A DNA stretch of 64,000 nucleotides from contig NZ_JAGIOB010000001.1 in NCBI RefSeq assembly GCF_017876495.1, positions 1,984,001-2,048,000 on the forward strand, read 5' to 3'. The stretch is from Microlunatus capsulatus (GTDB lineage: Bacteria > Actinomycetota > Actinomycetes > Propionibacteriales > Propionibacteriaceae). Positions 26,841 to 34,124 of this stretch are shown one piece after another; the first letter of the stretch is position 1; each line of letters starts with the position of its first letter. Both the position numbers and the translations under genes were made by a program. The notes beneath the pieces were generated by a model, which searched no databases, was not told the DNA's origin, and was given only the letters and a program-made list of their open reading frames with translations.

Positions 26841-27542
26841 GTGGACCCCTGGAGCGTCGGGCTGGCGGTGCTGGTCGTCGTCGGGCTGGCCGCCGTCGTC
26901 TTCGGCGCCCTCCACGACCGGGCCCGGAACCGTCGCCGGGCGGCGGAGGTGCTGGCCCCGCCGGACCGGGTGATCCCCCACTTCCGGGCCGACGCGCCCG
27001 CGCCGCGCTACCTCTCCGAGCTGCAGGCGCGCCGCCCGCCCGAGGACCCGCGGCCCGTCCTGGACGCCGCCGGCCGCGCCGAGGTCGAGCGCCAGCTGGC
27101 GGACGGCGCCGGCACCGGCGTGGCGGTCGGCTGGGCGTCGGCGGACTTCGTCACCGACCCGGCCACGGGCTGGGCGGTCCTCGACGAGCCGGTCGTCCTG
27201 GTCTGCGCCGACGAGGTGGTGAGCCTGCGCGAGCTGCTGGGCCTGCTGGAGCGCCTCCTGCTGAGCCGGACGCCCCTCGTGCTGGTCGCGCCCCGGGTCG
27301 CCCGTGAGGTGCAGGCGACGCTGGAGGTGAACCGCCTCCGCGGCCTGCTGTCCGTCGTCGTGGTGCTGGTGGGCGACCCGGCCGAGCGGGACGCGCTGGC
27401 CCGGGGCTGCGGCGCCACCCCCACCGAGCGCGCGGACCGGCAGGCCGGGTACCTGCCGCCGACGGTGCTGGGCCGCTGCCGCCGCTGGGTGAGCACCGAC
27501 CGGCGCAGCCTGGCCGTCACCCGGGAGACGAGCCCGGCCTGA
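26841..27542 (+). CDS. Membrane-anchored GroEL apical-domain-like protein
   Basis: A 233-residue protein. One N-terminal membrane helix (about 5-24) is followed by HDRARNRRR, which predicts a cytoplasmic C-terminus. After a linker, residues 94-228 track the substrate-binding apical domain of GroEL. GWASADFVTDP matches GYxSxYFVTDP, VLDEPVVLVCADEVVSLRELL matches the segment before the polypeptide-binding helix, LERLLLSRTPLVLVAPRV matches LEKVLQAGKPLLIIAEDV, and ATLEVNRLRG matches ATLVVNKIRG. VLGRCRRWVSTDRRSLAV matches the end of the domain. The equatorial ATPase parts of GroEL are absent. Chaperone, sensor or decoy roles are all inference. Confidence 0.75.
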   Translation: MDPWSVGLAVLVVVGLAAVVFGALHDRARNRRRAAEVLAPPDRVIPHFRADAPAPRYLSELQARRPPEDPRPVLDAAGRAEVERQLADGAGTGVAVGWASADFVTDPATGWAVLDEPVVLVCADEVVSLRELLGLLERLLLSRTPLVLVAPRVAREVQATLEVNRLRGLLSVVVVLVGDPAERDALARGCGATPTERADRQAGYLPPTVLGRCRRWVSTDRRSLAVTRETSPA

Positions 27543-27561: not shown

Positions 27562-27942
27562 GTGACGGAGACGGGTGCGGACCGGCGGTGGCCGCGGGGC
27601 GTCTACGGCGTCGGCGACGAGCCGGACCCCCGCTTCAGCTTCGCCAACGAGCGCACCTTCCTGGCCTGGGTGCGCACCGCGCTGGGGTTCGTCGCGGCCG
27701 GGGTGGCGCTGGCCGCCGTCGGCCGGCTGGGCGGCGGGCTCGGCGTCGAGGCCCGGGTGGCCGCCCTGCTGCTCGTCCTCGCCGGCCTGGTCTGCGGCGT
27801 CGGCGCCCTGGTCCGCTGGGCCCGCAACGAGCGGGCGCTCCGGCTGGGCGAGCCGCTGCCGTCGTCGGCCCTGCTGCTGGCGGTCACGGGCATCGTCGTG
27901 CTGGCGGCCGCCGTCGCGCTCGTCCTGGTCACGTTCGCGTGA
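27562..27942 (+). CDS. DUF202 (YidH-family) membrane protein
   Basis: A 126-residue protein with three predicted helices and the DUF202 start FSFANERTFLAWVRTALGFVAAG. The family is of unknown function and widespread in inner membranes. The GTG start is 19 bases after the apical-domain gene stop, so the two are probably one transcript. Confidence 0.85.
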   Translation: MTETGADRRWPRGVYGVGDEPDPRFSFANERTFLAWVRTALGFVAAGVALAAVGRLGGGLGVEARVAALLLVLAGLVCGVGALVRWARNERALRLGEPLPSSALLLAVTGIVVLAAAVALVLVTFA

Positions 27943-27980: not shown

Positions 27981-28331
27981 GTGAGGTCGGGGGCCGCCGG
28001 TCGCGGCCCCTGGGACCCGGGCCTGCAGAGCGAGCGGACGGCGCTGGCCTGGCAGCGGACCCTGCTCTCGGGCCTGGCCTGCTCGCTGGTGGTGGCCCGG
28101 CTGCTGGCGCTGGTGTCCTGGCCGGCCGCGGTGGTCGCGGGCATCGCCGCGGTGGTGACGACGGCGGCGCTGGGCGTGCTGGCCCGCCGCCGGTTCCGCC
28201 GCAACGACGACGCGGTCCGGCAGCGCCGCCCGCTCGCCGACGCACGGGCGCCGCTGCTGCTCAGCGTCCTCGTCGTGCTGACGGCCCTCGGGGCCGCCGT
28301 CGTGGTGCTGGGCTCGGGCCCTCAGTCGTAG
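27981..28331 (+). CDS. DUF202-family membrane protein (second copy)
   Basis: A 116-residue, three-helix protein with the shorter DUF202 signature PGLQSERTALAWQRTLLSG. Tandem DUF202 genes of the long and short type are common in actinobacteria and may form a hetero-oligomer. The last ten bases overlap the end of the convergent zincin gene. GTG start. Confidence 0.82.
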   Translation: MRSGAAGRGPWDPGLQSERTALAWQRTLLSGLACSLVVARLLALVSWPAAVVAGIAAVVTTAALGVLARRRFRRNDDAVRQRRPLADARAPLLLSVLVVLTALGAAVVVLGSGPQS

Positions 28332-29487: not shown

Positions 29488-29598
29488 CCTGAGCAACCTG
29501 GGGTTCTTGTGACGGACGTGACGCAATCGTTGTGCTGTCCCTCCCAGGACTCGGGTGCACGCAGAGCCGTCGCCGACGGCCCACAGGAGGGACTCCGA

Positions 29599-30918
29599 AT
29601 GCACGTCATCCGAGCAGGTCTGAGGACCGGCGCACGACTGCTCGTCTGCACCGCGCTGCTGGTGGGGCTGGTGGGCACCGCCCCGGCGTCCGCCGTCAGC
29701 ACCGCGACGACGACCGAGGCGCTCAACGTCCGGTCCGGGCCCGGCACCACCTACCGCGTGCTGGGCACCCTGCGCGACGGGCAACGGGTGACCACCCTCA
29801 GCACCAGCGGGGGCTGGACGCGCATCGAGTTCCGCGACGCCAAGGCCTACGTCGCCGCGAAGTACCTGCGGACGACGGCGGCCACCCCCGTCGTCGCCAC
29901 CCCCTCGGTCGCCGCGGGCAGCCTGCGGGCGACGACGACCGCGGTCAACGTCCGGACCGGTGCCGGCACCTCCCACGCCGTCCTGCGCGTGCTGGCCGGC
30001 GGCACCCGGGTCACCATGACCGGGCGGACCGCGGACGGGTTCGCCGAGGTCGTGCTCGGCAGCCGGAAGGGCTGGGTCGCCAGCACCTACCTCAAGGCGA
30101 CGACCGGGGTGCCGGCCGTCGTGGGCACCCGGGTCGCCACCGCCGCCCTGGACATCCGCTCCACCGCCGCCGACGAGTACACCCGCATCGCCGAGGTGAA
30201 GAAGGGCACCAAGCTCTCTATCACCGGCGCCGTCGCCAACGGCCGCGCGCAGGTGGTCTACGCCAAGGCGGCCCGCTGGGTGACCGCCAAGTACCTCGCC
30301 GCGCCGACCGCCGACCAGCCCGCCGTGCCCGGCCTGCCGCGGGTCACCGGGACCCGCTACGCCACGGCGACCCTGGACATCCGCTCCACCAGCGCCGACT
30401 CCTACACCGCCGTCGGCGAGGTGCCGCGCGGCACGGCCCTGAGCATCACCGGCGTGGTCGTCGACGGCCGGATGCAGATCATCTGGAACAAGGCGGCCCG
30501 CTGGGTGACCGCGAAGTACCTCGCGACCAGCCGGCCCTCGGTCGACAACGGCGCCGGCGCAGGCGTCGAGCGAGGGCTGAAGCCGAACGCCGTCAAGGTG
30601 CACCGCGCCGCCCGGCTGCAGTTCCCGCAGATCACCACCTACTACGGCGTCCGCGCCGACTCCATCCCGGACCACCCCTCGGGCCGCGCGCTGGACCTGA
30701 TGATCCCGTCCTACACCTCCTCGGGCGGCAAGGCGCTGGGCGGCGAGGTCGCGGCCTGGGCCCGGACCAACGCCCGCGCCCTCGGCATCCAGTACGTGAT
30801 CTGGAACCAGCGCATCTGGAACATCCAGCGCGACAAGGAGGGCTGGCGCCCGATGGCGGACCGCGGCGGGGACTCGGCGAACCACAAGAACCACGTGCAC
30901 ATCACGGTCTACGGCTGA
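29599..30918 (+). CDS. Secreted SH3-repeat protein with M15-like C-terminal domain
   Basis: A 439-residue exported protein. The signal peptide ends at ASA|VS near residue 34. Four bacterial SH3 repeats follow (about 38-92, 112-170, 178-235 and 255-312). Each has a variant of LNVRSGPGT/LDIRSTxAD, and repeats 3 and 4 both end ARWVTAKYLA. The last 110 residues form a wall-hydrolase-like domain with HPSGRALDLMIPS and the final NHKNHVHITVYG, a zinc H...D...HxH arrangement. It probably binds peptidoglycan through the SH3 repeats and cleaves it. GGAGG ribosome site. Confidence 0.8.
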   Translation: MHVIRAGLRTGARLLVCTALLVGLVGTAPASAVSTATTTEALNVRSGPGTTYRVLGTLRDGQRVTTLSTSGGWTRIEFRDAKAYVAAKYLRTTAATPVVATPSVAAGSLRATTTAVNVRTGAGTSHAVLRVLAGGTRVTMTGRTADGFAEVVLGSRKGWVASTYLKATTGVPAVVGTRVATAALDIRSTAADEYTRIAEVKKGTKLSITGAVANGRAQVVYAKAARWVTAKYLAAPTADQPAVPGLPRVTGTRYATATLDIRSTSADSYTAVGEVPRGTALSITGVVVDGRMQIIWNKAARWVTAKYLATSRPSVDNGAGAGVERGLKPNAVKVHRAARLQFPQITTYYGVRADSIPDHPSGRALDLMIPSYTSSGGKALGGEVAAWARTNARALGIQYVIWNQRIWNIQRDKEGWRPMADRGGDSANHKNHVHITVYG

Positions 30919-31143: not shown

Positions 31144-32295
31144 TCAGTCCCGCCGGAGCTCGACGACGGCGCCGCCGCCCTGGAGCCCCTGCATCAAGGC
31201 ATCGAGCCGGTCGACGGCTTGGTTCGACCCGTCCTCGAAGAGGCCGCCGTACCGGGTGAGTGTGAAGGCGACGCTGTTGTGGCCGGCCCACTCCGAGACC
31301 TCACGGACGTTGCAACCAGCGGCGACCAGGATGGCGACGAAGCTGTGCCGCAGGCCGTGGAAGGTGAAGCCGTCGAGGCCAGCGCGCTCGACAGCCGGAC
31401 GCCATGCCTCACGAGCGAAGGTCGACCGGAAGAGCGGGCCACCTCGCCGAGCGGTGAAGACCAGGGCGTCAGGTTCTCGGCCGACGTGATCCGCCAGGTG
31501 CTGCTCGAGCCGCCTCATCACTGAGCGGGCGACGGGGATCGTGCGCTTGGACCGCCGCGTCTTCGGCTCCTGGCCCAGCGTGACCTTGCCGTGCACCTCG
31601 ATAGCTGTGGACTCGACGATGATCCGCGACCGGAGAGCGTCGATGCTGGCCCTGGTGAGCCCGACCGCCTCACCCCACCGCAACCCACCGTATGCGCCGA
31701 CCAGGACAAGGGCGACGTACTGATCGGGCATCTCCGCCGCGAGACGCTCGACCTGGGACTGTGCGAGGAAGCGAGGTGGCTTCGAGCGCTCAGCCGGTAG
31801 TGGCACGTCGGCGGCGGGGTTCAGTGCGAGCCGTCGGTCGGAGATGGCTGCTGCTAGGCACTGACGCAGGGCGAACACCGCCTTGCGGACCGTGGCAGGC
31901 GAGAGCCCGCTCGCCACCATCTCAGCTACCCAGGCTCGGACCGCACCGTTGCTGATCTTCAGCAGCGGGGTCGCCCCGAACCTCGGCAGAACCTGCCGAG
32001 ACAACGTCGTCGCCAGCCGCGCGTGCGTCGTCGGCCGGAGATCGTGACGCGTGAGCAACCACTCCCCCGCCCAGACCGACAGCCGGACCTCACCCCGCCG
32101 AGGGTCGTGCCACGTCCCACCCGACAGCTCGAGCTCGATCTCGGCCCTGCGCCGCTCAGCGTCGACCAGACGGCGCTTGGTCTCGCTGTGCTCCCGACCG
32201 GCCCCATCCCGGTATCGAACCTTGTAGCGCACCACCGTCCTCACCCGACCCGACTTGTCCTGCTGCTGCAGCTCACGGCGCTCGATCGACGTCAT
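31144..32295 (-). CDS. int: Tyrosine-type site-specific integrase
   Basis: A 383-residue recombinase. The N-terminal arm-binding part has VVRYKVRYRDGAGREHSETK. The core-binding domain comprises about residues 65-165. The catalytic domain shows AYGGLRWGEAVGL (first Arg), FHGLRHSFVAIL (HxxR), EWAGHNSV and the nucleophile tyrosine in FTLTRYGGLF. Start ATG 32295 overlaps the excisionase stop (ATGA). It lies beside attL and points toward the tRNA, the normal arrangement for this element class. Confidence 0.95.
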   Translation of the reverse strand: MTSIERRELQQQDKSGRVRTVVRYKVRYRDGAGREHSETKRRLVDAERRRAEIELELSGGTWHDPRRGEVRLSVWAGEWLLTRHDLRPTTHARLATTLSRQVLPRFGATPLLKISNGAVRAWVAEMVASGLSPATVRKAVFALRQCLAAAISDRRLALNPAADVPLPAERSKPPRFLAQSQVERLAAEMPDQYVALVLVGAYGGLRWGEAVGLTRASIDALRSRIIVESTAIEVHGKVTLGQEPKTRRSKRTIPVARSVMRRLEQHLADHVGREPDALVFTARRGGPLFRSTFAREAWRPAVERAGLDGFTFHGLRHSFVAILVAAGCNVREVSEWAGHNSVAFTLTRYGGLFEDGSNQAVDRLDALMQGLQGGGAVVELRRD

Positions 32296-32525
32296 CACGG
32301 CTCCCGGACAGGATCGGCCTGACCCTCGATCCACGCCTCGACCGCCGAGCGCCGGTAGCGGACGTAGCGGCCTATCCGGTAACCCGACGGCCCCTCCCCG
32401 CGACAGCGCCACGCGTACAAGGTCGCGACCGGCACTCCGAGCATCTCCGAGAGGTCGGCGAGCGTCATCAGCCTCTCGGGAGGCTCCGTCACGATCGGCC
32501 TCTTGCTCATCTGCGTTCCTCTCAT
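32295..32525 (-). CDS. xis: Excisionase / AlpA-like MerR-type HTH protein
   Basis: A 76-residue protein with RLMTLADLSEMLGVPVATLYAWRCRGEGPSGYRIGRYVRYRRSAVEAW split as helix-turn-helix plus wing (about 18-64), the HTH_17 excisionase fold. It overlaps both the Rep stop and the integrase start by four bases, giving a rep-xis-int operon as in pSAM2. It should direct integrase toward excision. Confidence 0.9.
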   Translation of the reverse strand: MRGTQMSKRPIVTEPPERLMTLADLSEMLGVPVATLYAWRCRGEGPSGYRIGRYVRYRRSAVEAWIEGQADPVREP

Positions 32526-34075
32526 CTCGGACTGGTGTGCTGACGCGCTGCGGCCTTCTCCTGGGCGTACTCACGGGCCCGGGCGGCGGCGGCAGCAGCC
32601 AGGGCTGTCTCGCCCTCATCCGCCCAGCCGGATCCGAGGTAGGACCACCGTCCGATCACGAGGGTGGTCTCCTCCTCATCGGCGAGGAGATCAGCTTCGA
32701 GGCTGGCCAGGTCCAGTGGGGTGCCGCTGGCCCGGCTGGCGGCAATACGGGCCTGGGCGCGTTGCCGGGCGCGGCGCAGCTGGCCGAGGGTGATCGAGTA
32801 GCGGCGGGACTTCGTGGCGAAGTGGCCGCGGAACCCGAGCATCCGCCCCCAGTGCCCCAGCAGCTCATACGGGCTGCGGCCGGTGGCGAGGGTGGCGACC
32901 TGGGCGCGGAGGTTCAGGTCGGCGATGGTGGCCTGCAGGCGGCGGTGGTGGGCGGTGCTGGTGGCGACGTCGTCGCTGGCGGTCTTCGTCGAGTACTTGG
33001 CCAGGTACCCGGCGACCTGGGCTGCGGTGAGCGCCTGGTCGTCATCGGGGCGGTGGGAGCGAACGACCCGGACGTCGAGCTGACGGCCGAACACCAGGCG
33101 GCGGGGCACGTCCTGATCGTCGACGGCAGGCACGTGCAGGTGCACCGTAGACGCCGCCTGAGTTACGAGGGTGGCGAGCACGTCAGCCGTCACCGCGCCA
33201 GGCGGGTCGGTGACCCCGCTGGGACTCCGGGGGCCGTCGAGGCGGATGAGGGCGTGGAAGTGAACGGCGCCGCGGCGTTGGAACTCCGCCACCTTGGCGT
33301 ACTGCACCGTCGCCACCTCCGGCAACGCATGAGCAGGGATGCCGAGGTGGTGGGCGAGGCCGCGGTGCAAGGCGATCGTGAACCGGCGCCACAGGTCGGG
33401 GGCGAACCACTGCCACACCACATGGGACGCGTAGTCGTAGCAGTCCGGGCACAGCGGCTGCCCCAGCAGGACGGCAGACCTTCTGCCCTCGACGCCCTCG
33501 GCATGGACCAGTCCGCAGGCGAGCGGCCGGCCGTGCGGGCACCGACGGTTCAGGTCGCCGGGGTGGCAACGCCCGCTGGTGTGGACGCGGCCGAAGGAGG
33601 GGGCGGTGAGGGTGGCGAACAGCAGCGGGTGGTCGGCCACCGACTCGGGGACCGTCTTCCCGCCGGTGACGCCGGCGCGGATGAGGTGGAACATGTCCGC
33701 CGCGTAGAGACGGGAGCAGGACGGGCACTCCGACGCCCGCCGGTTCCCACACCGAACGTGCACCACACCCAGCGGGTGATCAGAGCTCGAGAAGCTCGAC
33801 AGCACCTCACCGGTGGCCGGATCGATCCGCTCAGAGGTGCCACGAAGGCGGACCGGTCGGACGCAGTTGCCGACCCGAGCCAACGTGTCAGCCCAGGCGC
33901 CGAAGTCCTTCGACACCAGCCTGGCCACGACCAGCTGCGACACCTCAGCAGTCAGGTCGTCGAGCTTGAGCAGGCCACGGCCGGAGTCCTCGTCGTCGTG
34001 CTGCCAGGCGCGGTCATGGTGGGCCGCAGGGCCGGCGTTCAGTGTTGAGGGGAGGTCCACGGTGACGATCACCAC
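32522..34075 (-). CDS. repSA: RepSA-like replication initiator
   Basis: A protein of about 517 residues related to pSAM2 RepSA. An N-terminal zinc-binding region has CGNRRASECPSCSRLYAAD and CPDCYDYA. The HUH nicking motif is GAVHFHALIRLDG, and the probable catalytic tyrosines are in VAGYLAKYSTKTA. It would nick a double-strand origin for rolling-circle copying of the excised circle. I placed the start at GTG 34075 because an upstream ATG at 34120 lies inside a 16-bp hairpin; GTG 34072 and 34060 are also possible. First gene of rep-xis-int. Confidence 0.85.
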   Translation of the reverse strand: MVIVTVDLPSTLNAGPAAHHDRAWQHDDEDSGRGLLKLDDLTAEVSQLVVARLVSKDFGAWADTLARVGNCVRPVRLRGTSERIDPATGEVLSSFSSSDHPLGVVHVRCGNRRASECPSCSRLYAADMFHLIRAGVTGGKTVPESVADHPLLFATLTAPSFGRVHTSGRCHPGDLNRRCPHGRPLACGLVHAEGVEGRRSAVLLGQPLCPDCYDYASHVVWQWFAPDLWRRFTIALHRGLAHHLGIPAHALPEVATVQYAKVAEFQRRGAVHFHALIRLDGPRSPSGVTDPPGAVTADVLATLVTQAASTVHLHVPAVDDQDVPRRLVFGRQLDVRVVRSHRPDDDQALTAAQVAGYLAKYSTKTASDDVATSTAHHRRLQATIADLNLRAQVATLATGRSPYELLGHWGRMLGFRGHFATKSRRYSITLGQLRRARQRAQARIAASRASGTPLDLASLEADLLADEEETTLVIGRWSYLGSGWADEGETALAAAAAARAREYAQEKAAARQHTSPR

Positions 34076-34080
34076 CCAGA

Positions 34081-34124
34081 GGGTGTGCCGCGCGGCTAGT
34101 GCGAACCCGCCGCGCGGCACACCC
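34081..34124. repeat. Perfect 16-bp hairpin upstream of rep
   Basis: GGGTGTGCCGCGCGGC (34081-34096) pairs fully with 34109-34124 around a 12-base loop. It lies just before the likely rep start and may be a terminator, a control structure for rep, or part of the origin. The stretch 34125-34417 beyond it contains no gene I can support. Confidence 0.7.

Follow-up and report, generated by a model that had tools for sequence, protein, structure and literature searches.

Microlunatus capsulatus has a protein in which the apical domain of the chaperonin GroEL stands alone, anchored to the membrane by an N-terminal helix. It belongs to a membrane protein family which is without a name in the Pfam and NCBIfam models that we searched; its anatomy and its status as a family are near certain. 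We favour, tentatively, the view that it is a cytosol-facing, membrane-tethered, ATP-independent peptide-docking module derived from GroEL. Peptide binding and the identity of any partner are proposed here from the pattern of conserved residues. The gene lies in the window, by which we mean the whole 64,000-nt stretch of DNA that was analysed. The coordinates given below are positions within the window; residue numbers are those of the window protein unless marked as GroEL.

26841..27542, plus strand: whole gene, coding for membrane helix, linker and GroEL apical domain (233 aa, GTG start)
26847..26954, plus strand: N-terminal helix, residues 3-38; membrane part about 6-24, then a basic juxtamembrane stretch
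26955..27062, plus strand: Pro-rich linker, residues 39-74; conserved, block pLDDT 82-88, a high value for a linker
27108..27524, plus strand: GroEL apical domain, residues 90-228, equivalent to GroEL 191-335 by profile, model and alignment
Within the apical domain: helix H, about 129-142; helix I, about 155-166; the invariant N164, equivalent to GroEL N265
27562-27942 and 27981-28331, plus strand: two DUF202 membrane proteins downstream, the first starting 19 bases after the gene; given as context only

The initial annotation had described a stand-alone, membrane-anchored apical domain, present from start to finish. Profile, structure prediction and homologues all bear this out. The structure was predicted with 54 sequences of the family as input; the model reaches a mean pLDDT of 94.0 and contains in succession a helix (2-37), an extended linker, a short helix, a second helix (75-87) and an alpha/beta domain; its numbering is that of the protein minus one. 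The predicted fold of this last domain is the apical fold of group I chaperonins and no other: model residues 89/90-227 align to 191/192-335 of structures 1jon and 1srv, within the limits of the laboratory minichaperones (about 191-336/345). Residues 1-89 form the membrane helix, the linker and short helices. The equatorial (ATPase) and intermediate domains are absent, as had been claimed, and therefore there is no ATPase. The layout of helix, linker and apical domain is common to all 54 aligned homologues. Standard models hardly see this protein: in the Pfam search it has no match to PF00118 at E<=1, and eight NCBIfam GroEL models match it at 22-53 bits, short of their curated cut-offs of at least 352.

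The DNA of the window is rich in GC and yields many spurious long open reading frames, so that one might think of a chance or low-complexity similarity in such a frame, or of a decaying groEL fragment. Such an origin is practically excluded. The profile and structure matches rule out a similarity confined to short or low-complexity stretches, and a remnant in decay is ruled out by the 54 open homologues and their dN/dS values. At the level of sequence comparison purifying selection on the gene is shown: dN/dS is 0.15-0.39 for the full length in six pairs, and 0.08-0.51 when parts of the gene are taken alone.

The most hydrophobic stretch of the protein is residues 6-24. In all 54 homologues there is a hydrophobic helix near the N-terminus, with more positive charge after it than before it, and in the juxtamembrane stretch D26 is found in 53 of them and R27 in 49. 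By the positive-inside rule this charge pattern would place the apical domain in the cytosol, with the N-terminus out. A single helix with the domain on the cytoplasmic side had been proposed before, and the charges support it; the topology is derived from them. The linker is extended in the predicted model and parts of it are among the best conserved columns of the alignment: P41, R43, P46, P55 and Y57 are each kept in 42-53 of the 54 homologues.

The aligned homologues have 23-86% identity to the window protein; two loci with undetermined bases (L033, L058) and a partial copy (L059) were left out. In a profile search 137 of the 197 genomes of the window's family, the Propionibacteriaceae, have a hit with E<=1.6e-30, a level that none of the listed GroELs reaches. 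As some of the hits cover the protein only in part (G001, G522, G541, G545, G551, G553, G561, G570), not all 137 genomes show the membrane helix. Divergent members score lower than GroELs in the profile listing and are thus hidden behind them. Of 14 remaining genomes that were listed in full, nine (G022, G045, G064, G079, G517, G038, G543, G026, G070) contain stand-alone frames with a length of 212-286 aa, and the other five (G031, G032, G040, G044, G051) have only GroEL-sized frames. The apical protein is therefore present in at least 146 of the 197 genomes, the 137 strong matches plus nine of the 14 listed in full. In genus g4 frames of 212-219 aa stand alone in all five genomes checked. Six named records carry the gene, all from Propionibacteriaceae, including Microlunatus kandeliicorticis and a Friedmanniella MAG. 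One genome, G563, has two different copies, on contigs C93 and C71 (272 and 153 bits); it could represent mixed genomes.

Among the matches listed outside the family we find nothing comparable. At the level of the order, 147 genomes were searched; 35 of them reach E<=1e-30, and each of these belongs to the window's family. The full profile was also run on 393 genomes of the class: among the matches listed outside the protein's own genome, the frames have at least 360 aa and match from profile position 70 or later, with the exception of G339 (from position 26, in a 534-aa frame). An N-terminal profile, A2, was run on 384 class genomes; it gives E 2.2e-32 for the own genome and 1.8e-4 (22 bits) for the next best. 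When the full profile was applied to seven loci from the A2 list only L121 and L125 matched, in their N-terminal part (18 and 16 bits); since the match consists of a membrane helix and an Ala/Glu-rich stretch, we take it as chance. None of the 42 genomes outside the family listed at E<=0.001, 20 of which had at least three class-search matches, has the family layout, and their apical-part matches lie in frames of at least 329 aa. Short apical exceptions outside the family are G210 (108 aa, at a contig end) and G167 (272 aa, 28 bits); G360 and G122 have weak matches, N-terminal only, of 21-22 bits. A viral locus, L133, matches residues 97-192 only. In one genome of the phylum, G669, groEL matches are found in several pieces on both contigs (C1:1011380-1012881 and C2:318523-320030), either broken genes or assembly trouble. 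The apical protein thus seems to be confined to Propionibacteriaceae, although divergent members elsewhere could be missed.

A tree of 22 family rows and 49 GroEL apical domains has a single branch separating the two groups, with SH-aLRT 100 and length 1.84; it comes from a quick search with long-branch warnings and does not fix the point among the GroELs where this branch attaches. From it we infer a single origin of the family.

What the domain may bind should be reflected in its groove. In GroEL the residues A152, Y199, S201, Y203, F204, L234, L237, L259 and V263 are described as important for substrate binding (PMC3268035). The mobile loop of GroES is contacted by L234, L237 and V264, and the mutation N265A is reported to block GroES binding while substrate binding is kept (PMC3514286). 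By cryo-EM non-native Rubisco is touched by N265, V264 and Y203, and R268 contacts it in each of four subunits (PMC10723157); another study places N265 and T266 in a table under GroES binding as well as under substrate folding (PMC2741606). We have studied eight groove positions, in GroEL numbering Y199, Y203, F204, L234, L237, L259, V263 and V264: the list of PMC3268035 without A152 and S201, plus V264. As a control we used all 50 GroEL loci, taken without a groove-containing motif. In them the eight positions are all hydrophobic in 48 cases, and seven of them are in the other two.

The family does not have the fully hydrophobic substrate groove of a group I chaperonin: among its 54 members all eight positions are hydrophobic in 3, seven in 23, six in 18, five in 9 and four in 1. 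The losses are unevenly spread, which shows, as far as the alignment tells, a selective remodelling of the groove. Position 203 is charged in 30 of the 54 and position 263 in 28; 204, 234, 237 and 264 are never charged. There are 39 positions at which 90% or more of the 50 GroELs are hydrophobic; of these, the family has a hydrophobic residue least often at 211, 203, 193 and 263 (4, 13, 14 and 22 of 54, respectively). The L234, L237 and V264 equivalents are all hydrophobic together with Asn at N265 in 52 of 54, and N265 is the sole invariant column of the alignment; L237, V264 and N265 are among the best-kept groove residues. Elsewhere the position of GroEL E252 is Pro in 41 of 54, and at that of R268 22 of the 54 have Q and 16 have R. 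Five of the eight positions are hydrophobic in the window protein, and the other three, 203, 259 and 263, are D, Q and E, respectively; position 259 is hydrophobic in 48 of the 54 homologues.

These figures bear on the suggestion, made in the initial annotation as a possibility, that the protein is an ATP-independent holdase: a natural minichaperone, tethered to the membrane, which would bind unfolded or translocating chains without ATP. The limits of the domain match those of the laboratory minichaperone (191-345), and six to eight groove positions are still hydrophobic in 44 of the 54 homologues. However, this role is weakened because the Y203 and V263 equivalents are retained together in only one of the 54 proteins and because three of the eight positions are polar in the window protein. 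Regulation does not favour it either. Upstream of the apical gene we searched for the heat-shock site CIRCE, with a consensus which we take to be the standard one, and did not find it: the best match has 8 mismatches in 18, with 7-10 over the 54 loci. Nor was a HAIR site found upstream of the gene. The two groEL loci of the genome have CIRCE-like sites with 1 and 2 mismatches in 18, in the longer stretches scanned there. HrcA/CIRCE control is usual for actinobacterial groEL (PMC5904260). We consider that the protein is probably not a general holdase; such a role is unlikely.

The residues kept in the groove could point instead to GroES, a type of partner which had also been suggested. A dedicated receptor would capture the co-chaperonin at the membrane, storing it or delivering it to GroEL on membrane or secreted clients. 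The three loop contacts and N265, present in 52 of 54, favour this idea. The genome has a canonical GroES and also a second, divergent GroES-like protein with 65 bits to PF00166 and the loop GGGILIPA. The latter is found at G000:C1:1310972-1311229 (L135:1456-1905, minus strand); judged by eye, its neighbours resemble a DUF3618-type membrane protein and a peroxiredoxin. At least two GroES matches are present in 62 of 98 class genomes. Within the family the presence of the divergent GroES is not tied to that of the apical protein. The eight genomes of genera g22 and g27 all contain two GroES, with only two matches each to the A1 profile and no apical protein seen; A1 matches were checked in G040 and G051 and are GroEL-sized. 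Conversely, G003, G015 and G018 have the apical protein with one GroES. The second GroES is therefore not an obligate partner, and a dedicated pairing with it finds no support in these distributions. A single apical domain is moreover expected to bind GroES weakly, without the avidity of the ring. We regard a dedicated receptor as very unlikely.

The partner might also be a membrane protein bound by another face of the domain, which would then be a scaffold: the apical fold kept, the groove unused, with DUF202 proteins as candidates for docking. A DUF202 match is found on the same strand within 1.5 kb downstream in 22 of the 54 loci, and the well-conserved linker would also suit a scaffold. 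In one of the 54 loci, L024:1501-2625 (G021:C691), the apical frame continues without a stop into the downstream DUF202 gene, giving 375 aa from the chosen start; either a genuine fusion or a fault in the draft genome could explain this. On the other hand, 32 of the 54 loci have no match to the two DUF202 proteins of the window, although 31 of the 54 hold at most about 1.5 kb downstream; because of these 32 loci the partnership is not shown to be general. The conservation of L237, V264 and N265 also argues against an unused groove. A scaffold appears somewhat unlikely.

Other neighbours are variable. Upstream of the gene, diverging from it, there is a DUF1992-type protein (Pfam DJC28_CD), and downstream, converging, a protein which by eye resembles a zincin-type metallopeptidase. 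Of the 47 longer loci, counted as greedy clusters named by eye, 33 have the metallopeptidase, 41 have an SH3-repeat protein and 12 have DUF1992. The SH3-repeat protein of the window (29509-30918, plus strand) has a signal-like start, as judged by eye. Among these recurring neighbours no firm operon partner or functional link was found. Further on, in 31144-34120 on the minus strand, there are in a row a tyrosine-recombinase-like, a small helix-turn-helix (excisionase-like) and a replication-initiator-like frame; by eye it looks like an integrated actinomycete element.

We return to the docking module. The apical domain would have split from a chaperonin once, in an ancestor of the Propionibacteriaceae or early within the family, would have been fused to a signal-anchor helix and then maintained by purifying selection. 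The protein would lie in the plasma membrane, N-terminus out and apical domain in the cytosol, lacking an ATPase domain and, to judge from the sequence, a ring. Its H/I groove may bind an extended hydrophobic segment much as GroEL binds the mobile loop of GroES, thereby bringing a partner to the membrane: GroES, a neighbouring membrane protein or its own conserved linker in cis. Avid general capture of unfolded chains would probably have been given up. Several observations go against this proposal. The hydrophobic character of L234, L237 and V264 is kept at a rate similar to that of most other positions which are hydrophobic in GroEL, so that structural need alone might account for it, and L234 and L237 also serve substrates (PMC3268035). 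V264 and N265 touch non-native Rubisco as well; R268, another Rubisco contact, is Q in some members of the family and R in others (PMC10723157 for the contacts). The Q of the window protein at the L259 position does not fit easily, and no partner was found: the second GroES does not track the apical protein and the neighbours vary. A bolder form of the proposal is that evolution has separated two uses of the groove, with substrate capture removed and docking of the GroES-loop type kept, giving an ATP-free adaptor by which, in Propionibacteriaceae, the plasma membrane would be connected with GroES or GroES-like loops of the chaperonin system; this we consider unlikely.

In the laboratory, apical domains in isolation have served as tools since the 1990s. 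Mycobacterial GroEL1 and GroEL2 (Cpn60.1, Cpn60.2) are three-domain proteins without a membrane anchor; the apical identity of the window protein to them is 33% and 30% (3m6c, 1sjp). With GroEL/Cpn60 in general the family shares the apical fold; it differs by the missing equatorial and intermediate domains, hence the ATPase, by its membrane anchor and by the lack of a CIRCE site. It has also lost the AEDV-(D/E)-GE motif of actinobacterial GroEL. Laboratory minichaperones such as GroEL 191-345 and GrAD 190-333 are described as ATP-free (PMC9138447). The window protein has the same boundaries, but it is natural, membrane-anchored, and has a remodelled groove and a conserved linker. The Fab1_TCP domain of PIKFYVE/Fab1 is described as an apical-like domain within a kinase, most similar to CCT3 (PMC2846930). 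Compared by description only, both are chaperonin apical-type domains outside a chaperonin; Fab1_TCP is eukaryotic, of group II type and part of a kinase, whereas the window protein is bacterial and of group I type. In titles and abstracts of the literature, a scope which excludes subscription papers and preprints, we recognised no natural stand-alone bacterial apical domain.

The finding defines a new membrane protein family. It suggests that evolution has put to use, as a docking module at the membrane, what was known as a minichaperone of the laboratory, and it bears on whether a lone apical domain can serve the cell without ring, cage or ATP. Selection has retained the apical protein, next to ordinary GroELs, in the majority of the Propionibacteriaceae genomes sampled. 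The protein family can be used as a natural experiment to tell the groove residues needed for substrates from those needed for the co-chaperonin.
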